From an uncultured archaeon (GTDB lineage Archaea > Halobacteriota > Methanosarcinia > Methanosarcinales > Methanoperedenaceae), in assembly GCA_902386205.1 (NCBI GenBank), contig CABMIH010000060.1, positions 1 to 64,000 of the forward strand: a stretch of DNA of 64,000 bases, given 5' to 3'. Below are positions 17,333 to 35,400 of this stretch, piece after piece. Within the stretch, counting starts at the first letter, position 1. Each line of letters begins with the position of its first letter. The notes beneath the pieces are model-generated. The model did no database searches. It was not told the DNA's origin and saw only the letters and a list, made by a program, of their open reading frames with translations. The translations under genes were made by a program, and so were the position numbers.

Positions 17333-18940
17333 TTATTCCGGTTTTATAAGTTCCCCGGCTTTAGATATGCAAATACGGTAGGAAACAGTTGAGATCAGCG
17401 CTGTTAATACAAGGGTGATAACAGAGACGAGTATAAAATGAAGAACATTGCCCGTTTTAATTAAAAAGTATATCCCGAAAGGCGCAAGGAGGACACCCGC
17501 TGCAAGTGCTGCCAGGAACATCCCCAGCAGCGCGCCCGAAATGCTGATGAAACGGTTCCTCACGGTCTCAGTGAAATCAGGGAACATAATACCCACTGTC
17601 AATCCGATAAATGACTCCGTAAGGATAAGTGCGACCAGGATAACGAGAAAAGCTATCGAGGTCCTGGATGCCGGATGTCCAAGGAGGACTATCCCGATCC
17701 AGAATACCAGTGCGAGAGGCAGGGATATGATAAGATTTGAGCCCACCTTTGCCCTGACGAATTCCCCGGGCGATAACGGGGATGACTGGATGTTCCAGAA
17801 AGCAGGCCCCTCCTGCCCGACGCTTACCGAAGAGTTCATGTAGGCGAAAAGCATGGCCCCGAAAGCCAAAGGGAAGGCAAGGAACATGGCATCCCTGGAT
17901 AGGGAAAAACCATTTTTTGAGAAAAGAGAAGGGATTAGCATTGTGGCCATCATCACCACCGGGATTGCCAGGTAGTTCGCCATCTCCCTTCGTCTTGTGA
18001 GTGATTTGAAATCCTTCCTGATGACGGCGCTTTCAGCAGGATTCAAACCCAGCCTGCCAAGAATTCCTGGCGTGGGAGAATATACGCCGGTGGACAATTT
18101 GACCGACACTGGCACGGGCACCCAGTAAACCTGTCTTAACCTGACGCTGACCAGCAGGAGTACACCTGAAAAAGTGATCGTGAGAAATACATAAAGGGAT
18201 GCCCGCATCAGGTTTGCATCTGTGAAGCCTGTTATGGCAAGCGAGGGCCAGAACAACGGAATATACGATGCAGCCGTAGCTGCGCCTGTTACTTTCCCCA
18301 GGATAAAGAACATGACCTGCGGATTAAAGAGAAGCTGCATGAACACAAATGATGCGATCAGAACGACCATTCTAAGGAACAACACCGTTTTCCCGCTGCG
18401 CTTATACAACAGCGACGAAGCCCTGTTAGTGAACGCCTTCAGCACTTCCAGTCCAAATGCCCCGATGAACATCGCAAAAAGGCTCATTGCAGCGGTCATT
18501 ATCCATGCGCCGAAAAGCCCGAACTTCAAGACTATCCCGAGGGCTCCGCCCAATGCGAGGGCTAAGAAGGGGGAATAAGCATAGACCAGGGATAACGATG
18601 ATGCCAGAACGTACTCTGAAGCCGATATGGGCAGGTAGTTGATCATATCTGTTGACATGAAGCCTGAGGAATAGCTCATTTCCAGCATCAATCCCGAAAG
18701 CATAAGCATAAAGAGAAGGAACATCGGCAGGTTGACCATTACCTGGACTGCAAGCGAGGGGTCAGTCAATACTATTGATAGCGCCCTGGAAAATACCAGA
18801 GCAATGATGAACGCTGCGATATCTATGAGCAATATGACAGATGTTTTCCTCAGGAAATCAAACATGCTGCTTTTTCCTGTTGCCCTGACCTGTGAAAAAG
18901 TGAACACCTTCGCCAACCTAAATACTGTTCGGAGGTTCAT
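17333..18940 (-). CDS. Large ABC exporter permease (ABC-2 like)
   Basis: The 535-aa protein has about 12 membrane segments in two halves, joined by a soluble basic stretch (RLGLNPAESAVIRKDFKSLTRRREMANYLAIP) that is typical of fused ABC-2 permeases. The start overlaps the stop of the ATPase gene by 4 nt. It is the last gene of the operon that starts at 24,961. Substrate unknown; the context of cell-surface and membrane proteins suggests lipids or peptides. Confidence 0.75.
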   Translation of the reverse strand: MNLRTVFRLAKVFTFSQVRATGKSSMFDFLRKTSVILLIDIAAFIIALVFSRALSIVLTDPSLAVQVMVNLPMFLLFMLMLSGLMLEMSYSSGFMSTDMINYLPISASEYVLASSLSLVYAYSPFLALALGGALGIVLKFGLFGAWIMTAAMSLFAMFIGAFGLEVLKAFTNRASSLLYKRSGKTVLFLRMVVLIASFVFMQLLFNPQVMFFILGKVTGAATAASYIPLFWPSLAITGFTDANLMRASLYVFLTITFSGVLLLVSVRLRQVYWVPVPVSVKLSTGVYSPTPGILGRLGLNPAESAVIRKDFKSLTRRREMANYLAIPVVMMATMLIPSLFSKNGFSLSRDAMFLAFPLAFGAMLFAYMNSSVSVGQEGPAFWNIQSSPLSPGEFVRAKVGSNLIISLPLALVFWIGIVLLGHPASRTSIAFLVILVALILTESFIGLTVGIMFPDFTETVRNRFISISGALLGMFLAALAAGVLLAPFGIYFLIKTGNVLHFILVSVITLVLTALISTVSYRICISKAGELIKPE

Positions 18941-19710
18941 TTGAGCAGCGCCTCAACTATATCTTTTACATCCCCTGTCCCTGTCAGTTTGAGGAAAAGC
19001 TCTTCAAGCGTTGAGCCGGGCATGCCGGCCTGGCTTCGAAGGTTCGATGCTGTACCTTCAGCCAAAACTCTTCCCCCCGACATTATTGCTATGCGGTCGC
19101 ACACAGCCTCTGCTATCTCAAGGACATGGGTGCTGAATATCGTAGAGACGCCTTCTTTTGAAAGTTGATGTATCAGGTCTTTCACTATCCTTGCAGATCT
19201 CGGATCAAGGCCGTTCAGGGGCTCATCCATGACAAGGAGTTTGGGTTTATGGATTAGTGCTGCCGTTATTACGGCCTTTTGCTTCATGCCCTGCGAGTAG
19301 CCGCTTAACATCTCGTTCTCCCTTCCCTCAAGCTCGAAGGCCCTCAGGAACTCGCTTATCCTCTCTTTCTTTGCCCGCACATCCATCTGGTGGATGTCGG
19401 CTATGAAATCCAGGTATTCGATAGCTGTCAGGAATTCATAGACCCTTGGGGTTTCAGGTACGTAGCCCACTATGCGTCTTACCTGAAGCGGATCTTTCCT
19501 GACATCGATCCCATCGACTTTAATAATTCCTGCATCAGGCTTCATCAGGCCCATGATCATTTTCATCAGCGTGGATTTCCCTGAGCCGTTTGGTCCGAGC
19601 AATCCGAAGACTTCACCCCTTCCGACCGCGAGGTTTACATTATCCAGAGCCTTCAATGAGCCGAAATACTTTGAAACCGAATCGATTTCAAGAACATGAG
19701 AATTTTCCAT
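18937..19710 (-). CDS. ABC exporter ATPase
   Basis: The 257-aa ATPase has Walker A GPNGSGKS (about residues 39-46), signature LSGYSQGMKQKAVITAALIH, Walker B LLVMDEPLNGLD and the switch His in STHVLEIAE. It belongs to the CcmA/NatA group, which works with ABC-2 permeases. It overlaps the permease gene by 4 nt and begins only 5 nt after the membrane-protein gene at 19,716, within the nine-gene operon. Confidence 0.9.
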   Translation of the reverse strand: MENSHVLEIDSVSKYFGSLKALDNVNLAVGRGEVFGLLGPNGSGKSTLMKMIMGLMKPDAGIIKVDGIDVRKDPLQVRRIVGYVPETPRVYEFLTAIEYLDFIADIHQMDVRAKKERISEFLRAFELEGRENEMLSGYSQGMKQKAVITAALIHKPKLLVMDEPLNGLDPRSARIVKDLIHQLSKEGVSTIFSTHVLEIAEAVCDRIAIMSGGRVLAEGTASNLRSQAGMPGSTLEELFLKLTGTGDVKDIVEALLK

Positions 19711-19715
19711 TTTGT

Positions 19716-20189
19716 TTACCTCGGAGTTATTTTATTCCCGGCAATTTGGGTTTCCACTTTGCTTCGATGGCCGGGTTGATAAAGTATGAGAGTTGCCACA
19801 AAAATGAGTACGGTCGCAGGAATGAAAAGCAATCCCATGCTTGGAAGGGTCAGCACTTCGAGGATTGCATGAACAGCCAGTAAAACAATAATCAGAGCAT
19901 ATTGTTTTTTTAATAATAAGAGAATAGTCCCGCCAAAGAGCAATAAAGTAATAGCTATGATAGAAAATGCGAACAAAAAGCCCTGTGTTTGTGCCAAGGA
20001 TTCATAACCCTGATAACCAGTGCTCGTTCTGTATTCGTACAGTGGTCCAAAGGCAACGAAAAAGCCCATAAGAATACCGTAAAGTCCTCCTGCCCATAAT
20101 AAAATGCGGGCGTTCTTGAACAATTTTAAGTTCTTTTCGTTGTCGTTTTTGTCGGTTGCTTTAGAATTATCTTCCACGATTTTCTTCAT
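19716..20189 (-). CDS. Four-helix membrane protein, operon member
   Basis: The 157-aa protein has a charged N-terminus (MKKIVEDNSKATDKNDNEKN) and four membrane segments (about 29-49, 68-90, 95-113, 117-137) with a basic tail. It overlaps the preceding gene by 23 nt, so a later start is possible, but the first ATG fits the fold. No family is recognised. Position between two ABC systems suggests a membrane accessory subunit; this is inference. Confidence 0.65.
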   Translation of the reverse strand: MKKIVEDNSKATDKNDNEKNLKLFKNARILLWAGGLYGILMGFFVAFGPLYEYRTSTGYQGYESLAQTQGFLFAFSIIAITLLLFGGTILLLLKKQYALIIVLLAVHAILEVLTLPSMGLLFIPATVLIFVATLILYQPGHRSKVETQIAGNKITPR

Positions 20190-20442
20190 CCTTGATTTTG
20201 TTTATTTCTATAATTTTTTTATATTGTTTCTCTATTATAAGATATACAGCAGTTATCAGCAATGCCAAAATGAATGCCGGAACCAAATTCACTTTAAAGT
20301 AATCCTGTCCCATAAGGGAAGGGGTTGACATGATTTTCCAGAAATTTCCTTCAATCATGGTGCCTGCTGCAAAGATAAGAGCAATGAAAAAAACAGTTAT
20401 TATCCGCAATAATTCCTTTGTGAATGAATTTGATTTTGGCAT
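20167..20442 (-). CDS. Two-helix membrane protein, operon member
   Basis: The 91-aa protein has membrane segments at about residues 9-29 and 52-70, a short outer loop with PSLMGQDYFKVN, and a long charged tail (EKQYKKIIEINKIKDEENRGR). It starts 9 nt after the stop of the gene at 20,452 and overlaps the next gene. Not recognised. Confidence 0.6.
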   Translation of the reverse strand: MPKSNSFTKELLRIITVFFIALIFAAGTMIEGNFWKIMSTPSLMGQDYFKVNLVPAFILALLITAVYLIIEKQYKKIIEINKIKDEENRGR

Positions 20443-20451
20443 CCAGAGCTC

Positions 20452-21222
20452 CTACTTAACCATTGCTTCAACGAGCTGCTTCTCATCTATACCGGATTTT
20501 ATAACTATTATATACGAATTACCGGGTAAATAGCCCTCTTTCGCTCCTATAAGTTCGCCGTATATAAAATCGCTGTTTTCAAGGGCAAAGCTGTCAATTA
20601 GCGCAAATTTCCGTGTTTCGTTGACCTCTAATTCTGAACCTGATTTGTTGAACCCGTGCAAGATAAGTGACGAACTGTATTCTTCGAAAGCTTTCCCGGC
20701 TTTCTGTTGTTCCTGGTAATAGAATGAAGCAATGTATATCTTATCTTTATAGTTGCGCGAAAACTTTTCTTTATACCCGCGGGGTTCATAGAACGACCAG
20801 TCGTATTTTTGCCATGGAACCTGGGTCACTATTTTATCTTCCAGTTCATATCCCCTGAAGATCAAAGCCATCATCGGTATCTGCTCCCCTTTCGGGCCAA
20901 TTGTCGTAAGATCGAGTGCAAAATTAATTGAGGCGAATGAAACGATAATAAGAACCAGAAAGCCTGTGATTAATAGTTTCTTGTCGCCTGTATAGAATCT
21001 CTTTGAGACAAAATACCATACAACTATAATGACCGCAAGGGAAATAATCTGCGCCTGGGGAAGAGTCAGCTGGTTTGAAATTCCTAAATATGTGTTTATT
21101 TTTAGGTTACTGATAGTGATTGCCGAGAAAATAACAAGCAATCCGGCTGGAATTCCAAGGATTGCTGATAAGATCAAAAGTGCGATTTTTGAAGATTTAT
21201 AATTCATTTTTCCCATCCTCAC
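20452..21222 (-). CDS. Membrane-anchored protein with outer domain, operon member
   Basis: The 256-aa protein has three membrane segments in the first 110 residues and a soluble domain of about 140 residues with aromatic and charged pairs (WSFYEPRGYKEKFSRNYKDKIYIASFYYQEQ). The domain resembles EpsI-like or other outer-face domains only loosely. The GTG at 21222 overlaps the upstream stop (GTGA); ATG 21216 or 21207 are alternatives. Function unknown. Confidence 0.6.
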   Translation of the reverse strand: MRMGKMNYKSSKIALLILSAILGIPAGLLVIFSAITISNLKINTYLGISNQLTLPQAQIISLAVIIVVWYFVSKRFYTGDKKLLITGFLVLIIVSFASINFALDLTTIGPKGEQIPMMALIFRGYELEDKIVTQVPWQKYDWSFYEPRGYKEKFSRNYKDKIYIASFYYQEQQKAGKAFEEYSSSLILHGFNKSGSELEVNETRKFALIDSFALENSDFIYGELIGAKEGYLPGNSYIIVIKSGIDEKQLVEAMVK

Positions 21223-22424
21223 TCAGCCCGCAGTGCTTCCACAGGGTCAAGTTTTGCTGCCTTATTTGCAGGATAAGCCCCTGCCACGGTAGCTGTAACC
21301 ACACCGAAAACCAGTCCTGCCGCAAGCGAACTCCATATGACAGCTATCGGTATTTCGCCGAACCTTGAAATGAGGAATGAGATCCCGGCCCCGATCGTTA
21401 TGCCTATAAGGCCGCTCACGAAACCGAGAAGTCCTGATTCGAGTATGAAAATCATCCTGATGTTCTCCCTGCTTGCACCTACCGCCTTCATTACACCTAT
21501 TTCTTTTATCCTTTCATTTACAGTAAGCATCATAACATTTACTATACCCACGCCTCCTACGGCCAGGGATACAGCCCCGATGCCGCCGAGTGCGAATTTT
21601 ACCTTTGTCAGTATCTGGCTGAATCCTTCGATCCAGGTTTTCAGCATATAAACGATGTATCCCTCGTCTTTGTGCAGCCTTGCCAGGGATTCCTCTACCT
21701 TCTTTGATGTGGCCTCGATGCTGTCGGGATCTTCAACTGTTACGAGGATCTGGGAATAAGTATATTTTTTTATATCGAGCAAATCTTTCAATGCATCGTG
21801 AGTTGTATAAATCTCCATGCCTTCGAACAGGGAGTTCTGGTTTTTCTTTTTAAGTATCCCTGCGATCGTAAATTCCTTGCTTGCATTATTATTTTTATTC
21901 GTTATGGTCACCCTCATGCCCGGATTCAAAGGCATTTTAAACAACTTATCTGCGACATCACTGCCTATCACTAAGGCGCTCCTGTCGGATTCCTTCAGGA
22001 AGCGCCCTTTATCTATGGATTCCGATAAACCTGCTTCTTTTGTAGGTGAGATTGCTGTTATTGACGAGGCGCGCTCTTCATCCCTGAATTTGACAGACAT
22101 CCCTCCGCTGGTTCTTGGTTTTGCCATTTTAACGCCTGCGGTGTTCATAATGGCATGCACGTCTTTATCATCAAGTTCTGCAGGTTTCTGGTTGATGAAC
22201 ACTTTTTCACCCTCGATGCGATAAACAGCCGGGCTGACGGTGATTACGTCCATATCCAGTCCGCTGACTATTCCGCCTACTCCCACAAGGAGTCCCTCGC
22301 CTATAGAGAGCATGACCACGATGGCAATGACGCCTATTACTATGCCAAGACCCGACATGATCGTTTTGAACTTGTTGCTTTGAAAGTTCAAAAATACCTG
22401 CTCGATGGCATCAGCAAGCTTCAT
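21219..22424 (-). CDS. MacB-type ABC permease (FtsX family)
   Basis: The 401-aa protein has the MacB layout: one N-terminal membrane segment (about 20-43, KFKTIMSGLGIVIGVIAIVVMLSIGEG), a periplasm-side MacB_PCD domain of about 220 residues, then three helices of the FtsX domain with NVMMLTVNERIKEIGVMKAVGAS (about 300) and a final PANKAAKLDPVEALR tail. Such transporters work by mechanotransmission and export or extract lipoproteins, peptides or drugs. It overlaps its neighbours by 4 nt and pairs with the ATPase at 23,637. Confidence 0.92.
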   Translation of the reverse strand: MKLADAIEQVFLNFQSNKFKTIMSGLGIVIGVIAIVVMLSIGEGLLVGVGGIVSGLDMDVITVSPAVYRIEGEKVFINQKPAELDDKDVHAIMNTAGVKMAKPRTSGGMSVKFRDEERASSITAISPTKEAGLSESIDKGRFLKESDRSALVIGSDVADKLFKMPLNPGMRVTITNKNNNASKEFTIAGILKKKNQNSLFEGMEIYTTHDALKDLLDIKKYTYSQILVTVEDPDSIEATSKKVEESLARLHKDEGYIVYMLKTWIEGFSQILTKVKFALGGIGAVSLAVGGVGIVNVMMLTVNERIKEIGVMKAVGASRENIRMIFILESGLLGFVSGLIGITIGAGISFLISRFGEIPIAVIWSSLAAGLVFGVVTATVAGAYPANKAAKLDPVEALRAE

Positions 22425-23650
22425 CCGGATTTCGCTCTCCTGCGTCTCATAATTAAAAAGAATCCCGCAATTACAATAAGTGCCGCTGCAAGCGTAGCAA
22501 TCACAGGAAGGAGAGCGGAATTGTTGGCATTTGCTGTATTCGCAGTCTTTCCGCCGTCCATCACCACGGCCAAGGTATCCGATTCGTGCCAGTTGTCCCC
22601 GTTTTTGAACCTGATCCTGAAACTCATATTCCCGGAGTTGTTGTTCACTTTCGGGTCGAATTTAACCGTGAAAAGTTCATCCGGCTCCATAGTACCGATA
22701 AAATATTCGGCAGGCTCGAATGTGGCATTGCCGTAAGGAATCACTGTTGCCGCCATAACTGTATTGGGTCTCTTGTTCGCAACATTAAGTATGATATTGC
22801 CGGGATTCAATTCAGGGGTCTCAGAGAGCGAGGCTTCTATGGAAGAAGAATCCACCCTTACCGGTATCTTCAGGTTCAGGCCGTAGAGCCTTGCGCTTCC
22901 TCCAAGATCAAAACCAAGGAAATAAGTGCCATCCGGGGTATTATTTTTAACCATTATCGTATATGAAAGTTCAACCGAGTCCCCGGGACCTACGATGCCT
23001 GCATTGTAATAGGGTTCGCTTGTTACGTCTATTACATCGTTCCCGATGAGTTCTGCAGATTGGATCTGCGCATTCATGCTGTAATCTTTGCCGTCCAGTT
23101 TGATCGTGTACGCTGAGGCGCTATTTTTCAGTGTCAGTGTAACCGTGGCTGCATCGCCGGCCATGAGAACCTCCGGGGAAACGGTGTATTTCTCAAGTTT
23201 TACGGTTCCCCTGGAATCCACGACATCACTGCCCACTTCGATGTTGAATTCCTTTTTTGTGAGTGTGCCATCCAGCCTGTATCCAAGTTCGATGGTATTT
23301 GTGCCGACAAGGGCGTTTTTATCCACATGCACATCAAACCTGTATCCGGCTTTGTCGTTTTTCCTTATGGTTCCCGGATATTTTACTGCGCTTTCCCCGG
23401 ATTTGATGGAGAAAGGGTATTTGAGAACAAATTCAACAGATGCGCCGCTTACATCATTGTCCCCCGCGTTCTCGACCTGTACCCATATACTGAAATCCGA
23501 GCCAGGGCTCACAGGATATGGATCGTATTTTACAAGGTTGATTTTTAACGCATTTTCTGCTAATCCGGCGTGTGCCGCGCCTGAAAAAAATAGTATGATA
23601 AATAAGGCAAACAGGTTTTTCCATATTTGCGGGATATCAGGCATTTTCAA
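22421..23650 (-). CDS. Exported COG1361-like protein with C-terminal membrane anchor
   Basis: The 409-aa protein has a signal peptide (about 1-28, ending AAHAG), two or three Ig-like/CARDB domains with the motif VQVENAGDNDVSGASVEF and LTLKNSASAYTIKL, and one C-terminal membrane segment (about 383-403) followed by RRRRAKSG. This is the archaeal COG1361 (S-layer-domain) type. Lying between MacB-type permease and its ATPase, it probably serves as the outside partner of the transporter, in the place of MacA. This last point is inference. Confidence 0.75.
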   Translation of the reverse strand: MKMPDIPQIWKNLFALFIILFFSGAAHAGLAENALKINLVKYDPYPVSPGSDFSIWVQVENAGDNDVSGASVEFVLKYPFSIKSGESAVKYPGTIRKNDKAGYRFDVHVDKNALVGTNTIELGYRLDGTLTKKEFNIEVGSDVVDSRGTVKLEKYTVSPEVLMAGDAATVTLTLKNSASAYTIKLDGKDYSMNAQIQSAELIGNDVIDVTSEPYYNAGIVGPGDSVELSYTIMVKNNTPDGTYFLGFDLGGSARLYGLNLKIPVRVDSSSIEASLSETPELNPGNIILNVANKRPNTVMAATVIPYGNATFEPAEYFIGTMEPDELFTVKFDPKVNNNSGNMSFRIRFKNGDNWHESDTLAVVMDGGKTANTANANNSALLPVIATLAAALIVIAGFFLIMRRRRAKSG

Positions 23651-24311
23651 TCCTCCCGTCCTTTAAACTCACAATCCTGTCGCAGCTCTGCGCAAGCCCC
23701 CGGTCATGGGTTACCATGAGTATCGTTCTCCCCTCACCATGTAGTTCATTGAATATCTGCATTATTTCCTGCCCCGTTCTTGAGTCCAGGTTTCCTGTCG
23801 GCTCATCGGCGAGCAGGATATCAGGTTCATTTGCCAGCGCCCTTGCAATCGCAACCCTCTGGCGCTGCCCGCCTGACAGTTCGGCGGGTTTGTGGTCTGC
23901 CCTGTCCCCGAGGCCGAGCATTGTAAGAAGCCGAAGAGCCCTTTTTACTCTCTGCGCTTTCGGGATGTCCTGGTAAACCATTGGCAGTTCCACGTTCTTC
24001 TGCGCTGTCAGGCGGGATATCAGGTTGAAAGTCTGGAATACGAAACCGATTTTCTTGCCCCTTATCCTTGCAAGTTCAATTTCGGAAAGGAGTGAAGTAT
24101 CCCTGTCGCCTATGATTATCTTCCCGGATGTGGGTTGATCCAGGCAGCCGATGAGGTTCATGAGGGTGCTTTTCCCGCTCCCGGACGGCCCCATTATTGC
24201 CGCGAATTCGCCTTCTCTGATATCGAGGTTGATATCGTGCAGCACAGGCACTGCAATCCTGCCAAGATGATAAGATTTGGATACTTCCTCGATTTTCAGT
24301 ACTGTTCTCAT
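23637..24311 (-). CDS. MacB/LolD-type ABC ATPase
   Basis: The 224-aa ATPase has Walker A GPSGSGKS (about residues 41-48), signature LSGGQRQRVAIARALANEP, Walker B ILLADEPTGNLDS and switch His in VTHDRGLAQ, the typical LolD/MacB order. It overlaps the YIP1-like gene at 24,308 and the exported protein gene at 23,650, and works with the MacB-type permease at 21,219. Strong assignment. Confidence 0.95.
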   Translation of the reverse strand: MRTVLKIEEVSKSYHLGRIAVPVLHDINLDIREGEFAAIMGPSGSGKSTLMNLIGCLDQPTSGKIIIGDRDTSLLSEIELARIRGKKIGFVFQTFNLISRLTAQKNVELPMVYQDIPKAQRVKRALRLLTMLGLGDRADHKPAELSGGQRQRVAIARALANEPDILLADEPTGNLDSRTGQEIMQIFNELHGEGRTILMVTHDRGLAQSCDRIVSLKDGRIENA

Positions 24312-24961
24312 AGGATACCGCTTATCCTGAGGCTCCAGGCCATGGACAGGACGCTTATCACAAGCGGAATTCCTGCTACGATTGCCGATCTGGAGGGCGT
24401 GAGCCTGTGGGCGCTCTGTATGCCGAAAAAGAGGATTACCGATGCCCAGACCTGCATGAGCGTTGCGATTATGCCTGTGGCAAGCATGTAAGGATTATTA
24501 TCCATTGCCGCCGGGTTTGTTTTTGATATTGTTATTGTCACTGGCTCCATCATAAAAAGCAATGCAAGCGTTATGATGCTTGCAAAAATCATGGGAATAA
24601 AACTGTAACCCGCAATAGTCAACATCTGCGGGGAGAACCTGCCTTCCCCGCCCAGTGCCAGTGATATCACGTGAATTATACCGGTGCCCACAACCCACAG
24701 GATGAAAATACTGACGATGCTGAATACTATGCCAACCATACTGATTATTGTCGTCATCGCCTCCATTGAGGACGGCATGTTCTCAAAACCCTCGTAACCG
24801 ATGGTGACTTTGTTCAGCCGTATGAACGCAGCAAGTGCACCCAGGATGGCGTATATCCCCAGTATCGTTACAGCCTCTTCGATCATGGGATGCTCTGCTA
24901 TGCTTTTCATTGCATTTTTGGGGTTTAGTAACGTTGCTTTTATTTTTTCTACGAAATTCAT
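24308..24961 (-). CDS. YIP1-family membrane protein, first gene of the ABC operon
   Basis: The 217-aa protein starts with KIKATLLNPKNAMKSIAEHP, the typical N-terminus of prokaryotic YIP1-domain proteins, and has five membrane segments, with the TMIISMVGIVF and GYSFIPMIFASIITL blocks. It lacks the MGWCP tag of its paralogues at 25,129 and 25,948 but its membrane part is alike. ATG 24961 is preceded by AGGTGA at 5 nt and is preferred to GTG 24970. A TATA box and operator lie about 80-110 nt upstream. Confidence 0.8.
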   Translation of the reverse strand: MNFVEKIKATLLNPKNAMKSIAEHPMIEEAVTILGIYAILGALAAFIRLNKVTIGYEGFENMPSSMEAMTTIISMVGIVFSIVSIFILWVVGTGIIHVISLALGGEGRFSPQMLTIAGYSFIPMIFASIITLALLFMMEPVTITISKTNPAAMDNNPYMLATGIIATLMQVWASVILFFGIQSAHRLTPSRSAIVAGIPLVISVLSMAWSLRISGIL

Positions 24962-25042
24962 GATATTCACCTGGATTTATTAATCAATTTGAATTTGTTT
25001 TTGCACTATCGGGTTTGCTCCTGTTCATTCAGTGGTGCAATT

Positions 25043-25071
25043 AGTCAACATATGCGTGTTGACTATTTAAA
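25043..25071 (-). promoter_or_regulatory. TATA box plus perfect palindromic operator of the ABC operon
   Basis: On the minus strand TTTAAAT (25071-25065) is followed at once by AGTCAACA, a 6-nt spacer and TGTTGACT (25064-25043). The arms are a perfect 8-bp inverted repeat. The expected start of transcription falls at the end of the palindrome, about 70-80 nt before the ATG at 24961. The 29-nt block is 25/29 identical to the one at 29,743-29,771. Confidence 0.8.
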
Positions 25072-25128
25072 GTTTTTGGCAAAAAGAGATGGTCCTAACC
25101 TGCATTATCTTTCAAATAATTTTTTTAC

Positions 25129-25920
25129 TTAATTTATTTGTCCTACTTTAATATATTTTGTCATGAATATTAAATACCCAATTATTAATATCAATACTAA
25201 AATTGGTATTATTACCAGATCGTATCTGAGGCCCCCCAGGGAAGCAAGGAAAAACACAAGCGGAATACCTGCTACGACCGCCGATCTGGCAGGTGTGAGT
25301 TTCTGGATTCTCTGCACCCCTAGAAAGAGTATTACAGATGCGAATATCTGGAGGACTGCCGCTATTGTGCTTGAGCCGAAGATGTAGGGATTATCATAGA
25401 TTTCTTTCCCTGCCGCAGGATTCGCAGGAGAAAGTATGATTGTCATGGGTTCTACCATAAAAAGTAACCCGAGGCTGATGAGACTTGCCAGAATCATGGG
25501 AAGAAAGCTGTAACCTGCGACAGTCATCATGTGGGGATAGAATTTGCCTTTCCCGCCCAGGAACTTTGAGGCCAGATGGATTATTCCCGTGCCGATGAAC
25601 CATAGAATAAAAATACTTATAAAAGAAAATGCTGCTATTTCCGTATTCGACAAACGTGGGATGTCCCCAAATCCTTCGAAAACAAATGTGACCCTGTAGG
25701 ATTGTATGTATGTAGAAAGCGCACCCAGCACTGCATATATCCCGACTATCACCAGAGCGTTCCTGATATCTGGCTGCTCTGCTATGCGTTTCATGGCGCC
25801 GCCGCCCGGCATGCTTATTACCGGGTTATCGAACCGGACTTTGTTTCTTGTCTCAAATGAGTTCGCATTCGGGCACCACCCCATTGTTTTTCTTACAACT
25901 TCTGTCACATTTACTGTCAT
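25129..25920 (-). CDS. MGWCP-tagged YIP1-like membrane protein
   Basis: The 263-aa protein begins MTVNVTEVVRKTMGWCPNANSFE and then a region like the 25,948 paralogue (KVRFDNPVI). After a soluble first 60 residues it has five or six membrane segments of the YIP1 type, with LASKFLGGKGKFYPHMMTVAGYSFLPMILASLISLGLLF. It starts 27 nt after the paralogue's stop and is the last gene of the proximal operon. No partner or substrate is known. The tag is shared with five other proteins of this operon. Confidence 0.8.
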   Translation of the reverse strand: MTVNVTEVVRKTMGWCPNANSFETRNKVRFDNPVISMPGGGAMKRIAEQPDIRNALVIVGIYAVLGALSTYIQSYRVTFVFEGFGDIPRLSNTEIAAFSFISIFILWFIGTGIIHLASKFLGGKGKFYPHMMTVAGYSFLPMILASLISLGLLFMVEPMTIILSPANPAAGKEIYDNPYIFGSSTIAAVLQIFASVILFLGVQRIQKLTPARSAVVAGIPLVFFLASLGGLRYDLVIIPILVLILIIGYLIFMTKYIKVGQIN

Positions 25921-25947
25921 GCTGGCCTCCTTACTTTATTATTAAAA

Positions 25948-26682
25948 TCATAACAGGCTGCTCCGCAAAATCGATGCAAGTGACAGGATGTTAAATGCCA
26001 GGGGAATTCCTGCTACAACCGCCGATTTTGCGGGTGTGAGCCCGTGTATCCTTCGCACACCGAAAAAGAGTATTGCTGAAACCATGACCTGCATAATTAT
26101 CGCGAATATGGTTGAGGCGAGCATGTAGGGATTACCATAGATTTGTGTATAACCCATTGGATTTCCCGGTGACACTGTAACTGTCATGGGTTCCATTATT
26201 AAGAGCAATGCAAGGCTGGCCAGACCCGCAAAAAGGAAGGGAATAAAGCTGTAGCCAACCATCGTTATCATGTGTGGATAGAATTTACCTTTCCCGCCAA
26301 GAACCTTTGAGACAATATGGACTACTTCTGTTCCTATAACCCACATAATGAAAGCGGATACCAGTGCGCCCAGAACGATAAATTTTTTCATTATTGACAT
26401 CAGGCCCCCCATGTCAAAATTCCCATATCCCTCGAACACATATGATATTTTTTCAGCCGATATATACACACCGAGTGCATTCAGGATGGCATAAATCCCC
26501 ACTACCACCAAAGCGCCCTTCATCCCCTGCATCTCTGAAATTCTCCTGATGGCGCCGCCGATACCGCCTGAGGCGCCTGCCGGAATGTTATCGAACCGCA
26601 CCGGTTTTCGTGCCTCAAACGCGCTCGCATTCGGGCACCAGCCCATTGTTTTCCTTATGATGTCAGTTACATTTATCGCCAT
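25948..26682 (-). CDS. MGWCP-tagged YIP1-like membrane protein
   Basis: The 244-aa protein (start ATG 26682, preceded by GGTGATT) begins MAINVTDIIRKTMGWCPNAS and is clearly a duplicate of the 25,129 gene: both share VRFDN, GKGKFYPHM and GYSF blocks. It has five or six membrane segments after a soluble N-terminus with a Gly-rich stretch. Its start lies 1 nt after the stop of the 59-aa gene upstream. Confidence 0.8.
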   Translation of the reverse strand: MAINVTDIIRKTMGWCPNASAFEARKPVRFDNIPAGASGGIGGAIRRISEMQGMKGALVVVGIYAILNALGVYISAEKISYVFEGYGNFDMGGLMSIMKKFIVLGALVSAFIMWVIGTEVVHIVSKVLGGKGKFYPHMITMVGYSFIPFLFAGLASLALLLIMEPMTVTVSPGNPMGYTQIYGNPYMLASTIFAIIMQVMVSAILFFGVRRIHGLTPAKSAVVAGIPLAFNILSLASILRSSLL

Positions 26683-26683
26683 T

Positions 26684-26863
26684 TCAATCACCCGGCCTTT
26701 TATTCTTATGGAAAAAAGCAACAAGTATGAAAGTGGCGATCGGCCCAAGCAGGAGAGAAATAAGGAACCAGTTAAGGCCGCTCCTGTTCTTTCCCTGGGC
26801 TATCCCTGCATTGATCAATGCAAGCGTCCCCCAGCCGATAGCGTAATCAGGTGCCGGGGTCAT
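26684..26863 (-). CDS. 59-aa membrane protein, operon member
   Basis: ATG 26863 opens a frame (MTPAPDYAIGWGTLALINAG...) that stops at TGA 26686-26684. It has GAGGTG about 8 nt upstream, overlaps the preceding gene's stop (ATGA), and sits 1 nt before the next ATG. One membrane segment holds NWFLISLLLGPIATFILVAFF, a pattern common in small prokaryotic membrane proteins (R-S-x-L-x-W-F...GP). No function is known. Context makes it a firm coding gene despite its size. Confidence 0.7.
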   Translation of the reverse strand: MTPAPDYAIGWGTLALINAGIAQGKNRSGLNWFLISLLLGPIATFILVAFFHKNKRPGD

Positions 26864-27606
26864 GGAAAGACACCTCTGATTGAGTCCCTGCCTCCAATAT
26901 GCAATTCAATAATATCGCTTATCTCAGATGCTGTTTTTTCGTCTGTTATAATGGAATAGTAAGGCGAAATCTCATACCATTTTTTCGTTTTGGATTCGAT
27001 ATACAATTGTGTGTCCAGGCCATGATGATGCCTCTCTTCTTTCCTTTTTAACAGAAGATAAAGGGGAAGTGCGGGCGTTGCTAATAATATAACCCGCCAT
27101 TCCTGCATTATTACGAATATAATAAATGCGGCAAACAATATACCCAGTAAAATAACTTTGGTTTTCATTGAATATTTTTTGAGTTCCCATTTGAAGGACT
27201 TGATCGATCTGATATCGCTGTAATTTAATGTAAATTGTCTCAGCCTGAAGGAATTATAATACACTCCATTTTTATCTACACGGATGCCTGCCTGAAAACT
27301 CTTGAGACTTATGAAGTAATAGAAGGCATAAAGTGTAACAACCGCTACGAACAGGACTGAATAATCCATATGGCGGGAGAAATTAGCCAGTATGGAAAAG
27401 CCTGCTACAAAGAAGAAAGTCATTATGGCCGTATTGGCAGGGAAGACGACATTGCAGGATTGGATTGGCCGGATTTGAACTGATTTACCTCCCGGGCTTA
27501 TTGGGTGATTTGCATAATAAAAGGGTTGTTCTGGTTTGTATGTCCACGAATTTACAGACGGGCACCAGCCCATCATTTTCCTGATATTCTCGATAAATGC
27601 AGTCAT
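26860..27606 (-). CDS. MGWCP-tagged membrane protein, DUF1673-like
   Basis: The 248-aa protein starts MTAFIENIRKMMGWCPSVNS. It has two pairs of membrane segments (about 56-95 and 150-185) around a soluble stretch with VYYNSFRLRQFTLNYSDIRSIKSF, and a polar C-terminal domain (DTQLYIESKTKKWYEISPYYSIITDE). The layout resembles DUF1673 proteins known from Methanosarcina, recalled from memory. The ATG overlaps the upstream stop and AGAGGAA lies upstream. Function unknown. Confidence 0.7.
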   Translation of the reverse strand: MTAFIENIRKMMGWCPSVNSWTYKPEQPFYYANHPISPGGKSVQIRPIQSCNVVFPANTAIMTFFFVAGFSILANFSRHMDYSVLFVAVVTLYAFYYFISLKSFQAGIRVDKNGVYYNSFRLRQFTLNYSDIRSIKSFKWELKKYSMKTKVILLGILFAAFIIFVIMQEWRVILLATPALPLYLLLKRKEERHHHGLDTQLYIESKTKKWYEISPYYSIITDEKTASEISDIIELHIGGRDSIRGVFP

Positions 27607-28280
27607 TTATTCCTCTTATCGTCAGAAGCAATATCTTTCAATAAAAAAAATTCATAGTCGTTGCGGGGATAAACCAATATTTCCCTTTCATCTGCCTTGA
27701 TTTTAATTATCTTTGGATATCCGGATATCCTGAACATAGAATACGATACATAAGCCATTCCAAATATTGCAATAATGTACAGATTTTTCATGACTGGATT
27801 TTGAGTTTCAATTGCATTCAAAATCAACGAAATAAAAAACAGTGTAAATACGATCGGGCCAAGCTTATATTTTTTAGCAGGATTTTCAAAAATTACTACG
27901 CTGTTGACACTATTTATTGGGATTACGATATTTTTTAAAAAAGAAGATATCCTGAATGTTGCATTATTGACAGAAAGTTTTGTTTGAAATAATATGAAAA
28001 GCAGTTCACAAAGGATATACGCCAAAACAAATACATACCTGAATGTTCCTGCCCATGCACTTCCGATCAAAATTAAACCGGTGAGTGCCAGGAAAATAGC
28101 CAGTATGAGCCTATCAAATATCTGGACTTGCACATTTATGCCATCCAGAAACCCGGTATTAGCACTCTTCTTACTGTTATATGTATTGTCCTGGATAAAC
28201 ACTTTTTCAGTGATTGAAAATTTTGTTTTTTGCGGGCACCAGCCCATGATTTTTCTAATGTTCTCAGTAAAAGCAGTCAT
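27603..28280 (-). CDS. MGWCP-tagged membrane protein, DUF1673-like
   Basis: The 225-aa protein starts at ATG 28280 (MTAFTENIRKIMGWCPQKTK) with GGGTGG upstream; an ATG three codons earlier is in frame. It has four membrane segments (two about 60-100, two about 140-180) with the KNIVIPINSVNSVVIFENPAKK stretch between, and a short end rich in charged residues (KADEREILVYPRNDYEFFLLKDI). It is a close paralogue of the 28,292 gene: both have YPRN-EFFLLK/EFLILK ends. Confidence 0.7.
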   Translation of the reverse strand: MTAFTENIRKIMGWCPQKTKFSITEKVFIQDNTYNSKKSANTGFLDGINVQVQIFDRLILAIFLALTGLILIGSAWAGTFRYVFVLAYILCELLFILFQTKLSVNNATFRISSFLKNIVIPINSVNSVVIFENPAKKYKLGPIVFTLFFISLILNAIETQNPVMKNLYIIAIFGMAYVSYSMFRISGYPKIIKIKADEREILVYPRNDYEFFLLKDIASDDKRNK

Positions 28281-28291
28281 TTCATCCACCC

Positions 28292-28978
28292 TTATGTTGG
28301 CTTACTACCAGCAAATTCTTTCAAAATCAAAAACTCGTGTTCGTTGCGGGGGTAAAGAAATATGTCACTGCCATCTGCATTGATTTTTACGATCTTCGTG
28401 TTATTATATATACGGATGCTGAAATATAGGAAGTATACCCATGAAAATATTGATATAATGAACATGTTAGTCCATATCGGGCCTTTGAGAGTGAATAACA
28501 GGAAGATCAATTGCATTGAGGCCAATATTAACAAGGCCAAATGCCGAAATTTGTTCCTGCCGGCGCTGTTCTCAATTATTTCCACGTTGCGGATGCTATT
28601 TTTAGGGATCAGGATCTCTTTTGATAATGGCGCGCTTATTTTCAATGCTCCATTTCCTACAGATGCCTTTGAACGGCTGAATATGAAAACCAGAGCAATA
28701 TAAACAAAAAATGAAGGGAGCACGTATCCATATGTGCCTGCCTTCTCACTTCCGAACAAAACCAGGGCTATGAAACCCAGAAGGACTGCCAGCACGCGCC
28801 ATTCAAACCCACTCTGGATGGGGATATCCATACTCCCGACAGATTGATCATTAAAGGCACGGTTCTTACTGCAATTGGCATAACCTGATATGAACAAATC
28901 TTCAGCACTTGAGACGATTTTTTTCTGCGGACACCAGCCCATGATTTTTCGAATGGCTGCTGTTACATGGAGCGTCAT
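28292..28978 (-). CDS. MGWCP-tagged membrane protein, DUF1673-like
   Basis: The 228-aa protein starts MTLHVTAAIRKIMGWCPQKK and matches the 27,603 gene in order and motifs: paired membrane segments, then SKEILIPKNSIRNVEIIENSAGR, paired segments, and INADGSDIFLYPRNEHEFLILKEF. The repeated YPRN tail and shared tag show duplication. The gene overlaps its upstream neighbour by 4 nt. Function unknown. Confidence 0.7.
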   Translation of the reverse strand: MTLHVTAAIRKIMGWCPQKKIVSSAEDLFISGYANCSKNRAFNDQSVGSMDIPIQSGFEWRVLAVLLGFIALVLFGSEKAGTYGYVLPSFFVYIALVFIFSRSKASVGNGALKISAPLSKEILIPKNSIRNVEIIENSAGRNKFRHLALLILASMQLIFLLFTLKGPIWTNMFIISIFSWVYFLYFSIRIYNNTKIVKINADGSDIFLYPRNEHEFLILKEFAGSKPT

Positions 28979-29298
28979 GATCTCTCTCGATTCTTTTTTC
29001 TTATATTATTCAGAATCAGAATGCTCGCAAACGAGCCTCCTCCAAGGATGGGTAATACCCGGTTCATATACTGTGTTCCCTCAAGAATCGTTGAAATAGC
29101 AACGATAACAGACGCCCAGATTAATGCTATCAAAATAACTTCGGTATTTCCAGAGCAAAGGTTTTTTTTAATTCTTTGCCATGGCAATATCGAGTCTTTT
29201 ATCTCCATTTCAGGCACAATTATCCCCGCAGTTTTTGTATTCACATTCGGACACCATCCCATCAATTTTCTCTTTTTTTCAATATCAGTTGTCGTCAT
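28975..29298 (-). CDS. MGWCP-tagged short membrane protein, 107 aa
   Basis: The protein starts MTTTDIEKKRKLMGWCPNVN, then has a short polar link and two membrane segments (about 51-70 and 80-97), ending in RKKNRERS. It is the shortest tagged member and may be a reduced version of the others. It overlaps both the regulator gene upstream and the next gene by 4 nt. Confidence 0.65.
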   Translation of the reverse strand: MTTTDIEKKRKLMGWCPNVNTKTAGIIVPEMEIKDSILPWQRIKKNLCSGNTEVILIALIWASVIVAISTILEGTQYMNRVLPILGGGSFASILILNNIRKKNRERS

Positions 29299-29741
29299 GC
29301 CAGCCCCCTCAATTTCTCGAACAATTCCTCAGCCAGCTTCGTCGGGTCATCGGTCCTCTCAAGCTTGATCTTCATTTCATCCGCAAAGTCCCACAGCAAC
29401 TCAATACACTGCGCGTACCTCGTGCAAGCGCCGCAGTTCCCTTCATGCTCGTACCATACCTGCATCCCATGCTTTGCAGACACGAATATAATTGCGCCGG
29501 CATTGAAAGGGACAGAGTGCCCGAACAGGATGCCGCGCTTTGCGTTCACTCTCTCCATTTCTATCTGGTTCGCGCGCGCCATCTCAAGCAGCGTCTTTTC
29601 TATCCTCTCATCCATTGTTAGAAGCGCCCGTGATACCGCCTGCTTGGATATGTTGAACGTGCGCGCGATGTTCACATTCAGAAGACCGCTGCGTCGCAGC
29701 TTCCAGAACTCGAACTGTTTATCGTTTAGAGGCAGGAACAT
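29295..29741 (-). CDS. HTH regulator with a Cys cluster, first gene of the operon
   Basis: The 148-aa protein has an N-terminal HTH (about residues 6-45, DKQFEFWKLRRSGLLNVNIARTFNISKQAVSRAL) resembling Tfx- or sigma-type HTH units, then a helix and a ligand-type C-terminal domain with C103, C106 and C112 (CGACTRYAQC). The three Cys could bind zinc, iron or a cluster. ATG 29741 lies 24-30 nt after the TATA box and 2 nt after the operator, so the mRNA is probably leaderless and the protein likely controls itself. Confidence 0.75.
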   Translation of the reverse strand: MFLPLNDKQFEFWKLRRSGLLNVNIARTFNISKQAVSRALLTMDERIEKTLLEMARANQIEMERVNAKRGILFGHSVPFNAGAIIFVSAKHGMQVWYEHEGNCGACTRYAQCIELLWDFADEMKIKLERTDDPTKLAEELFEKLRGLA

Positions 29742-29742
29742 G

Positions 29743-29771
29743 AGTCAATATATGTATGTTTACTATTTAAA
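29743..29771 (-). promoter_or_regulatory. TATA box plus operator of the regulator operon
   Basis: On the minus strand TTTAAAT (29771-29765) is followed by AGTAAACA, a 6-nt spacer and TATTGACT (29764-29743), an imperfect inverted repeat. The block matches that at 25,043-25,071 at 25 of 29 positions with identical spacing. The ATG of the regulator gene lies directly behind it. Confidence 0.8.
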
Positions 29772-29904: not shown

Positions 29905-29923
29905 TTATGGTATGGGAGCAAAC

Positions 29924-30301
29924 ATGAAATCTATTGAGATAAAACAACTTGACGAGAAAAATGAAGAAATCGCAGACGCTCTTATTGCCATAGGCATGAG
30001 CAGGAATATCGCACGAACACTCAGCTATCTTCAGAACGTAAATGAAGCCACATCAGTGAACCTCGAAAGGGGGACCGGGTTGCGGCAGCCTGAAGTCAGC
30101 ATTGCCATGAAGCAGTTGAAAGAACGTAACTGGATAGTTGAGCGGGAAGAGAAAAAACCTGGCAAAGGAAGACCATACAGAATCTATTCCCTCAAAGTCG
30201 GGTTTAATAATATAATCTCTGACCTTGAAAAGCAAAAGAGAAAATCTGCCGATGAAGTGCAACTCAGGCTAAAACGATTGAAGGAATTAGGGAAAGAATA
30301 A
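29924..30301 (+). CDS. Winged-helix regulator, TrmB/ArsR-like
   Basis: The 125-aa protein starts MKSIEIKQLDEKNEEIADAL and has a winged helix (about 20-100): SRNIARTLSYLQNVNEATSVNLERGTGLRQPEVSIAMKQLKERNWIVEREE, then a Gly-Arg-Pro wing and a charged C-terminal coil. It resembles small TrmB-type archaeal regulators that lack a sensor domain. It is followed by PRC-barrel and Thg1 genes on the same strand. Target unknown. Confidence 0.75.
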   Translation: MKSIEIKQLDEKNEEIADALIAIGMSRNIARTLSYLQNVNEATSVNLERGTGLRQPEVSIAMKQLKERNWIVEREEKKPGKGRPYRIYSLKVGFNNIISDLEKQKRKSADEVQLRLKRLKELGKE

Positions 30302-31490: not shown

Positions 31491-32465
31491 ATGGAAATCA
31501 CACTTATACTCATTGCAGCTTTTGCGGTAGCCGTTTTCATGGGTCTAAATATCGGCGGCAATAATGCCGCCGCCGCAATGGGAGCGGCCTATGGTGCAAA
31601 AGTCCGCACAAAATACCAGGCAGTGATGTTAATAGGCGTATTTTCCCTGCTCGGGGCTGTATTCAGCGGCGAGGAAGTGATAAAGACGCTCGGCAAAGGG
31701 ATACTCCCTTCAGGGACGATACTGATGGAAGGGGCCATAATCGCAGTCGCTGCCGCCGGGATTACCGTATTCCTTGCAAACATACTGCGCGTCCCCATAT
31801 CCACAAGTCAGGCAGCCGTGGGAGCCGTCGTCGGGATCGGGCTTTTCTATGGCCCCTCAAAAATAAACACTCCACTTCTCGGATACATCGTAAGCTGGTG
31901 GGTGGTCACGCCGATCCTGGCATGGCTGCTTGCGTATATAATGCGAAAATACCTTTACACTGACATTCTTGTATGGCTTGCGGACCACCATGAATCGGAT
32001 GTCTCGATACGTAAATCCCTGAATATACTCTTGACAATTTCAGGATGCTATGTTGCTTATTCAGCCGGGGCAAACAACGCTGCAAACGCGGTCGGCCCCA
32101 TTGTCGGTGCAGGTGGGATGCAATCTCTTTACGGCGCCATATTTGCCGGCCTTGCCATCGGTCTTGGCGCCCTTCTCATGGGCGGCCGCGTGCTTGATAC
32201 CGTGGGAAAGGAGATCACTGAACTCTGCGTGATCCGGGCAACGTTCGTTGAGTTCACATCCGCCATAATCGTCCATATAGCCTCGATCCTTGGAGTCCCT
32301 GTATCGCTCGGGGAGATAGTAGCTGCCGGTGTGATAGGGATAGGATGCGCGAACAGCGGCATGCATATAGTAAGAGGGGAAGTTGTAAAGAAAATCGTGA
32401 TCGCCTGGGTTATTTCACCGCTCCTCGCAGGGACAGTGGCATTTGTTTTAATGAACCTGATTTAG
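31491..32465 (+). CDS. pit: PiT-type phosphate transporter
   Basis: The 324-aa protein has about 10 membrane segments and two copies of the PiT signature: GLNIGGNNAAAAMGAAYGAK near the N-terminus and YSAGANNAANAVGPIVGAGG in the second half. PiT proteins take up phosphate with Na+ or H+. The N-N pair in place of N-D in both repeats is common in archaeal members as far as I recall. It is convergent with, and overlaps by 18 nt, the histidine kinase gene. Confidence 0.88.
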   Translation: MEITLILIAAFAVAVFMGLNIGGNNAAAAMGAAYGAKVRTKYQAVMLIGVFSLLGAVFSGEEVIKTLGKGILPSGTILMEGAIIAVAAAGITVFLANILRVPISTSQAAVGAVVGIGLFYGPSKINTPLLGYIVSWWVVTPILAWLLAYIMRKYLYTDILVWLADHHESDVSIRKSLNILLTISGCYVAYSAGANNAANAVGPIVGAGGMQSLYGAIFAGLAIGLGALLMGGRVLDTVGKEITELCVIRATFVEFTSAIIVHIASILGVPVSLGEIVAAGVIGIGCANSGMHIVRGEVVKKIVIAWVISPLLAGTVAFVLMNLI

Positions 32466-35400
32466 ATATTTTGGTATTTCAACAACAAAAACCGCCCCAC
32501 CTTCGGGATTATCTTCCACCCATGTCCTGCCGTTATGCAGTTCCACGATCCTTCTGGCAATTGCAAGGCCCAGGCCCGAACCCTTAACACCTGTCTTATC
32601 CATACGATTGAACCTCTCAAATATCCTGACCTTATTTGTGTCGTTTATGCCTTCACCGAAATCAATTATTTTTATATTCCAGGATTTTACGCTATCTTCT
32701 CCTTCCAGAACGACCTTTTTACCCCTGGAGGCGTATTTTATGGCATTGGATATGAAATTATCAAAAACTTCTTCAATTATTCTATTACATCTGGCTGGCA
32801 TGCTCCAGGTAATGTTATTTTCTATCTTCATTTCCTCCCCGGCTGCAAGAGGAGCAAGAGTTTCAATAACTTTTTCGATTATATCTTTCAAGTCAGTATA
32901 TTTCAATTCAATACTTTCCAGACTCTCAAGCCTGGAATACCGGGTGGCGGAATCAATCAGATCCATTCCCTTTACAAGATTTCTTTTAACGGTTTCCAGA
33001 TAAGCTATTCTCTCAGGATTTGTCTCACTTTCCTTAAGAATTTCAATATAGCCATTTGCAGTGTTAAGAGGATTTAAGAGATCATGGTGCATAATATCAA
33101 TAAAAAGTTCCTTCATGCGGTTGGATTCTTCAAGCTCTTTTGTATATTTCTTTATCGCTTCCTCGGCCAGTTTACGCTCCGTTATATCCCTGTCAAATGC
33201 AAGTATATATTTATGATTACCAAGTTCAAGTAATCCTGCATTCATCTCGACCGGAAATACAGTGCCGTTCTTCCTGCAATGGTAAATATCTTTTTTGATC
33301 TTCTCTCCTTCCAGCATGCGCTGGATAAGTTGAGGGGCGACTCTGGCAACATCAGGTGTATCAAGCTCTGTTATTTTCATAGCCAGTAGTTCATTGATAG
33401 AATATCCATCCATTTCTGCTGCTGCCTGATTTGCGGCTACTATGCGACCTGCTTTTTCCCCCTCTGCATCCAGTATAAAAATGGCGTCGCTGGCATTTTC
33501 GAACAGCATCCGATAACGTGTCTCACTCTCCTGAAGCACCTCCTCCGCCCGCTTGCGTTCAGTGATGTCCCTCATGACGCCAACCAAAGCTATGGGTTTA
33601 CCGCTGGTATCTTTAACCATGGATGTGGTAAGCCATATAGGGATTTCACGCCCGTCCTTATGTTTTACCATGAGTTCTCCTTCCCATGTACCAGTATCCC
33701 GTATAGAGGGAAGGATCACCCTGGTAGCAAACCAGGGATCAACATTCAGTTCATTGACGTGCTTTCCATTTAATTCCAAACGGGAAAAACCATAGATCTT
33801 CTCCACCGCCTTGTTAGAATAGACTATATGGCCATCCAGGTTCACAATTTGAAATCCATCCGGGGCTTCTTCCACGGCATTAGAGTAAAGTCTCAGCTCC
33901 TCCTCTGTGCGCTTTCGCTCAGTGATGTCGCGTACATATTCGATAGCCCCTCTCATCTGCCCTGTTGCTGAATCTATCATCGGGAAACTATAAATTTCAA
34001 TCCACCCGATATTCTCTCCATGGGGCCCGCTTTTTTGAACAACTTCATGTGCTGATTCGCCGGTTTTAAGTGTTTTAATGGCGGGGCAGACTTCACACGG
34101 TTCACTCCGGCTGTGATAGGCTTCGTAGCATTTCTTACCAACCAGCGGCACGTTATGCGGATACCACTTTTCAGCCGTAGGGTTTGTACGGATAATATTC
34201 ATGTCCTTATCAATGATGCCAATACCGTCCTGTATACTGGCAAAAATGCTTTCCAGGAAGCGTTCAGCTTCCCGTATCTTCTCTTCTGCCCGCCTGCGGT
34301 CCGTGATATCTCTTACGACTTTTATTCCTGCAATGATATTACCTGTCGAATCCCTTAAAGGCGAAGTCGTAAATTCAAAGTAGGAAGTTCCTCCATCTGT
34401 GACCACTTTTTTTTCCGCCCTGTGGATCTTTCCATCCTTTAAGGATAATTCAACAGGGCAACCTTTACAGATTGTATCCTTATCCCCATACGTTTTATAA
34501 CAGTACTCGCCAACACGGTCCCCAAACAAATCATTCTGTATCTGGTTTTGATATGTTATTTTATAATCAGTATCCTGGATGATAATCCCGTCACCTATGG
34601 CTGAAATGATCGCATTTGACTTGTTTTTCTCTTCCTCAGCTCTTGCGATGGCCGACCCAAGCGCTTTCTCCACCTGCTTGCGCTCGGTAATGTCCCTGAT
34701 TATCGCCATTTCCGCAGGCCTGCCATCGTATTCGATTAGAGATGCATTTATTTCAACGGGTATGTTTTTGCCATCTTTTGAGATTATCCCTATTTCACAT
34801 TTATTCGGGACATCTTCTCCTGCCATTCTTCTTTTATACCTGGCAAGCACAAATCCTTTGAAATCAGGGGAAATAAAATCAATGAATGGCTTTCCTATTG
34901 CATCAGTTATTTTGAAACCTGTGATTTCAGCCATCATTGAATTCACAAATTTTAGCCTGCCGTCCTGGACAATAACAATGCCGTCATTTCCTTTTTCAAC
35001 AAGGGTTGAATATTTTTTTTCACTTTCCTGCAATGCTTTTTCTGCTATTTTTTGCTTGGTAATATCACGTGCGATCCCCATGCTTGCTATCTTGCCGTGA
35101 TAATTTATCAGGACAATTTTCATATTGGCCAGGATTTTTGTCCCATCCTTGCGCAGTCCATGAAATTCGTATTCATTGGGGACATTTTCACCATTTAACC
35201 TTCGATGATATCGATCAATAACAAACTCCAGGTCCTCAGGAGCAACAAATTCCCCAAACTCCCTGCCGATTATTTCTTCGATCTTGTAACCAGTAGTCCT
35301 GGCAAAAGCCTCGTTGACATACTGGATTTTAGCATCCTGGATAATGAAGACGCCATCCTGGATATTTTCAACCAGCATGCGGTACTTTTCTTCTGATTGC

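Follow-up and report, generated by a model that had tools for sequence, protein, structure and literature searches.

Conserved promoter-operator sites suggest an autoregulated repressor of two membrane-protein gene arrays in Candidatus Methanoperedens

The minus strand of the window, by which we mean the whole 64,000-nt stretch of DNA analysed here, which comes from a methane-oxidising archaeon, carries two co-directional gene arrays, each preceded by a 29-nt block. The initial annotation had claimed that the two blocks agree in 25 of their 29 nucleotides and share one layout of TATA box and inverted repeat, and the sequence confirms this: on the plus strand positions 25043-25071 read AGTCAACATATGCGTGTTGACTATTTAAA and positions 29743-29771 read AGTCAATATATGTATGTTTACTATTTAAA, while on the minus strand both blocks contain the TATA box TTTAAATA with the palindrome directly after it. 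The perfect 8-bp arms described for the 25043 block are there as well (AGTCAACA at 25043-25050 and TGTTGACT at 25057-25064), and so is the minus-strand placement, one block lying before an HTH regulator gene and the other before a Yip1-ABC operon. The estimate of about 17 genes was also right, with 8 genes from 29741 to 25129 and 9 from 24970 to 17333. Read along the minus strand, the features are as follows.

29743..29771, minus strand: operator-promoter 1, TATA box TTTAAATA and palindrome GTAAACATACATATATTGAC, separated by 2 nt from the regulator ATG
29295..29741, minus strand: regulator, 148 aa, with N-terminal HTH and C-terminal alpha/beta domain
28975..29298, minus strand: operon 1, membrane protein of 107 aa that starts with an MGWCP head (DUF1673 19.9 bits, under the cut-off of 30.4)
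28292..28978, minus strand: operon 1, 228-aa membrane protein with MGWCP head
27603..28289, minus strand: operon 1, 228-aa DUF1673 protein (PF07895 38.2 bits, over the cut-off)
26860..27606, minus strand: operon 1, 248-aa membrane protein with MGWCP head (DUF1673 22.4 bits, under the cut-off)
26684..26863, minus strand: operon 1, 59-aa ORF, probably a membrane protein on a reading of its sequence alone
25948..26682, minus strand: operon 1, fusion of MGWCP head and Yip1 domain (PF04893 5e-15)
25129..25920, minus strand: operon 1, fusion of MGWCP head and Yip1 domain (PF04893 1.3e-19)
25043..25071, minus strand: operator-promoter 2, TATA box TTTAAATA and palindrome GTCAACACGCATATGTTGAC
24308..24970, minus strand: operon 2, Yip1 protein lacking an MGWCP head and distantly similar to YknW (PF04893 2.5e-22; YknW_fam 34 bits, cut-off 110)
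23637..24311, minus strand: operon 2, ABC ATPase, probably of MacB/LolD type (PF00005 1.4e-36)
22421..23650, minus strand: operon 2, CARDB-like, probably an exported protein with a C-terminal anchor (weak CARDB/NPCBM matches)
21219..22424, minus strand: operon 2, MacB/FtsX-type permease (PF12704 2.6e-26, PF02687 2.7e-21)
within 17333..21222, minus strand: operon 2 distal, proteins of 256, 91 and 157 aa of no assigned kind
18937..19710, minus strand: operon 2 distal, second ABC ATPase
17333..18940, minus strand: operon 2 distal, 535-aa protein, probably the permease of the second ABC ATPase

The block at 29743 stands directly before the HTH gene, whose ATG is at 29741, and the block at 25043 lies 81 nt 5' of the Yip1 start codon (ATG at 24961), with AGGTGA in front of that codon. 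The Yip1 gene is the head of the tight nine-gene operon 2, whose distal neighbours overlap or are separated by gaps of at most 10 nt. The gathering score of Yip1 (PF04893) is reached at 24308-24970, 25129-25920 and 25948-26682, and that of DUF1673 (PF07895) in operon 1 is reached at 27603-28289, the other MGWCP-headed proteins staying below 30.4. We infer that the two arrays are separate transcripts; as neighbours in the same orientation they could also be joined by read-through from the first, and the 25043 site could serve as a promoter inside a single long array. Near the array, 32448-35852 on the minus strand encodes a 1134-aa protein whose sequence looks like that of a sensor histidine kinase with several PAS domains.

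As for the regulator's own promoter, the operator occurs in 45 of 45 cases (44 relatives and the window), always between the TATA box and the ATG and at a fixed distance, with the consensus TWTAWATA-GTMAAYAT-NCAT-ATRTTKAC followed by 2 nt and the ATG. Eight operator positions are invariant, GT.AA and TT.AC of the arms, with free variation at some inner and outer bases. The TATA box is centred about 26 nt ahead of the regulator ATG, which predicts a leaderless transcript from operator-promoter 1, the palindrome occupying the gap from TATA box to start. The same operator recurs beside the regulator in several methane-cycling families; for a family with 52-59% identical regulators the pattern search gave no matches, and one locus whose regulator is 52% identical (L070) has a diverged site. 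In MnB_21 (L031, 4782-8444) two intact regulator copies, each with its own operator, lie about 3.2 kb apart in an array that resembles that of the window but lacks the block from Yip1 to the 157-aa protein.

A search of the 2.79-Mb genome, which its nearest named relatives place in Candidatus Methanoperedens, for TATA box plus palindrome with at most 3 mismatches returned exactly two matches, and the reversed control returned none. On a score matrix built from the 45 regulator promoters, the window's own among them, with a maximum of 46, the Yip1 site at 25043 reaches 43.7 versus 41.9 for the regulator's own site at 29743, and a scan of 557 kb of reversed sequence gave no score above 6. Of the 186 genomes compared, regulator and site are both present in 69, the regulator alone in 18, the site alone in 2 and neither in 97; the site was thus found in 69 of the 87 genomes with the regulator versus 2 of the 99 without it (Fisher p = 3e-31, genomes of one genus not being independent). 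Matches in G023 and G133, genomes without the regulator, fit poorly and occur at a rate like that of the reversed control, and they were taken as chance. The association of site and regulator comes largely from the regulator's own promoter, and therefore its independent weight rests on the extra sites.

The initial annotation had set beforehand that absence of the two sites from relatives keeping the genes would refute a shared regulon, and the sites withstand this check; besides its presence in all 45 regulator promoters, the site is kept before Yip1 in G012, which holds the only close orthologue of the window's Yip1 found in the genus (91% identical) and has it on a contig other than the regulator's. 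From CAAAAAC through GTTGAC the window and G012 agree in 34 of 35 bases, and their leaders differ by a large gap. Most Yip1 loci are without the operator, among them the paralogue in the window's own genome (contig C65), and the family's other Yip1 loci, at most 64% identical, have none of their own; two site matches among them are explained, one belonging to a neighbouring regulator gene and one overlapping the window site. The operator also precedes Yip1 in four Methanosarcina genomes whose Yip1 genes form one close group (G149, G150, G152, G174; 78-100% identical), and ten more distant Methanosarcina Yip1 genes (45-56%) have no operator. Behind Yip1 in G150 and G152 lie a homologous CARDB-like gene and the first part of a gene for an ABC ATPase, and the G150 set compares with the window module at 34% identity for CARDB (1e-30), 54% for the partial ATPase and about 25% for Yip1. 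Moreover, the module stands downstream of the regulator itself in three ANME-2/Methanosarcinaceae genomes: after the regulator and two other genes come Yip1, CARDB, ATPase and permease in L056 and ATPase, CARDB, permease and Yip1 in L057, and in L058 the ATPase is next after the regulator, across a short N run in the record. Operator and Yip1-ABC genes therefore seem to have come together on more than one occasion.

The regulator itself matches no Pfam family over cut-off, and its best NCBIfam match, tfx (TIGR00721), stays at 19.7 bits, far under the cut-off of 60.25. Within the family 24 of 34 genomes have an orthologue, and within the order 87 of 186, in a few cases as a fragment only; records under the names Methanolinea and Methanoregula contain orthologues as well. 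The monomer was modelled with a pLDDT of 91, and H99, C103, C106 and C112 of the C-terminal domain are invariant across 42 regulator sequences; it is a reasonable reading of this invariant His and three Cys that the domain senses a metal or redox signal. Divergent from the regulator, 29912-30301 on the plus strand encodes an MreA-family transcriptional regulator (NCBIfam 141.8 bits, cut-off 100). This neighbour was rejected as the protein acting at the site, which it adjoins only in L031 among the annotated loci; the HTH gene accompanies the site in all.

By profile (8hno, E 0.09) and by fold (8hnp) alike, the regulator matches best, although weakly, EnfR (TON_1525, Tfx family) of Thermococcus onnurineus. 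EnfR is a repressor whose dimer binds near the start codon, at a pseudo-palindrome covering a TATA-like element (PMC10570040), and like the window protein it is archaeal, of similar size and has an N-terminal HTH. EnfR entries rank among the first fold matches with weak values (E 0.12-0.39, TM 0.32-0.34, a monomer model being compared with the 'eighth note' fold of EnfR), and a TM of about 0.34 does not establish overall fold agreement. The palindrome in the window, directly downstream of TATA, overlaps the core promoter as that of EnfR does, which is a shared principle and no proof of membership. In contrast, EnfR has an operator sequence of its own, unlike the present one, and controls a CODH cluster, and the text of its paper (PMC10570040) does not mention cysteine, of which the window regulator has three invariant residues.

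The same operator stands before the regulator's own gene and before target operons and is kept in relatives, the pattern expected of an autoregulated repressor with a regulon. Since the sites are conserved, recur before homologous operons and co-occur with the regulator, it is very probable, on sequence grounds, that the two blocks serve as promoter-operators for a single autoregulated repressor, which would control both arrays and their 17 genes. We infer that the 148-aa HTH protein, as a dimer, would bind the palindrome GTMAAYAT-NCAT-ATRTTKAC between TATA box and start point and hinder the initiation complex or RNA polymerase, in the way that archaeal repressors block initiation between TATA and start (PMC10570040). 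Repression would silence the regulator's own leaderless transcript, with its MGWCP/DUF1673/Yip1 membrane proteins, as well as the second transcript for a Yip1-ABC-CARDB-FtsX exporter and a further ABC pair, until a signal sensed by the C-terminal domain releases the dimer. In this way an uncharacterised regulator present in 87 of 186 genomes, including genetically tractable Methanosarcina, gains a precise operator and a target list.

Archaeal activators usually bind upstream of BRE/TATA, and the position of the present site downstream of TATA therefore disfavours the idea that the regulator recruits factors at both promoters; with the palindrome abutting the TATA box and ending at the start codon, a bound dimer would block initiation. 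We thus regard activation as improbable, although sequence alone leaves the sign unfixed and Methanosarcina barkeri has an activator in HdrR (PMC11218639); HdrR was set aside as a relative, nothing found linking it to this family. Still less credit is due to the proposal that the blocks, instead of being a protein operator, act as RNA hairpins or as a strong core promoter of generic type. The perfect dyad at 25043 would be in keeping with it, but the TATA box position places the palindrome upstream of the expected start, hence in untranscribed DNA; the genome has only two such sites, and across genomes the site tracks the regulator.

Beyond the regulator promoters, about 22 sites precede something other than an intact regulator; these sites were classed from short stretches, and remnant scores were taken against simple shuffles, uncorrected for the number of sites. 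Their targets are MGWCP/DUF1673 proteins, Yip1-ABC operons, ABC exporters, STT3/AglB-like proteins and LolA-like lipoproteins. Behind most of these operators the DNA resembles the regulator gene, either its start or inner parts (L141, L146, L147, L163, L168, L169, L182, L185, L186, L188, L189, L190, L193, L194), and the search behind the operators of L140 (G012) and L165 detected no remains, its outcome being equivocal for the window, L184 and L167. In G004, G006 and G025 the target starts V-F-L-P-L-N, to be compared with M-F-L-P-L-N of the regulator. Small BLAST matches of the L137/L138 leaders to one reference were discarded, as that reference extends into an MGWCP gene. The relatives display tandem intact copies, truncated copies, internally deleted copies, bare operators and, as another stage, six leftover codons fused to the target gene. 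Because most extra sites have decayed regulator remains behind them, the regulon probably, though with less assurance than attaches to the repressor itself, spreads by copying of the whole autoregulated gene and decay of its ORF, which leaves the operator-promoter before the next cell-envelope gene. Such growth by duplication and decay would have its stages visible side by side, and the literature consulted, which covered few subscription papers, contained no earlier account of it, of the regulator family or of MGWCP. In Methanosarcina G156 (L193:232-2337) two similar lipoprotein genes, of which the one tested is LolA-like, lie behind an operator and a decayed regulator.

These remains also bear on whether the 25043 site is just the vestigial promoter of a duplicated regulator gene that now controls nothing important, as does the second intact regulator copy in the similar array of MnB_21. 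The window leader bears a weak likeness to the 5' end of the regulator gene, with p values of 0.07 and 0.017 from two uncorrected tests, and on these values a remnant behind the site was not accepted. The near-identity of promoter and operator in G012, where the leader has changed, and the retention of the operator before Yip1 in the four Methanosarcina genomes make us doubt a functionless vestige strongly, and control of both arrays by one repressor remains the preferred reading.

Regarding the genes so controlled, the Yip1 protein of operon 2 beside a MacB-type ATPase and permease recalls the Bacillus exporter YknWXYZ, which is connected with SDP toxin efflux (PMC4887032). However, the window Yip1 protein attains 34 bits against YknW (NF052650), below the equivalog cut-off of 110, and the window module has a further component, the CARDB-like protein. 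Membrane proteins with the MGWCP motif (DUF1673/arCOG06827) have been described as a lineage-specific expansion in Methanosarcina (PMC4158269, PMC4390880); the operon 1 proteins share this head and one passes the Pfam cut-off. The passages concerned deal with the expansion only, a regulator, operator or operon context being absent from them, and the present data tie these expanded, unexplained proteins to one regulator. An MGWCP-headed gene lies at most 4 kb downstream of the regulator in 36 of 40 loci, and two of the four exceptions (L057, L058) carry the ABC-Yip1 module instead; such ORFs number 106 in 150 kb downstream versus 2 in 280 kb upstream. The head motif, E-x-I-R/K-K-x-M-G-W-C-P-N-A, is joined to unlike membrane parts, namely Yip1 domains, an AglB-core-like domain (L052, below cut-off) and others without Pfam match. 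Its occurrence on Yip1, DUF1673 and AglB-core-like modules (window 25129-29298, L031-L076) resembles that of a tag for targeting or assembly. At L137:7894-9156 the head precedes a C-terminal part which, with no significant Pfam match, contains a WWDYG motif like that of STT3/AglB catalytic regions.
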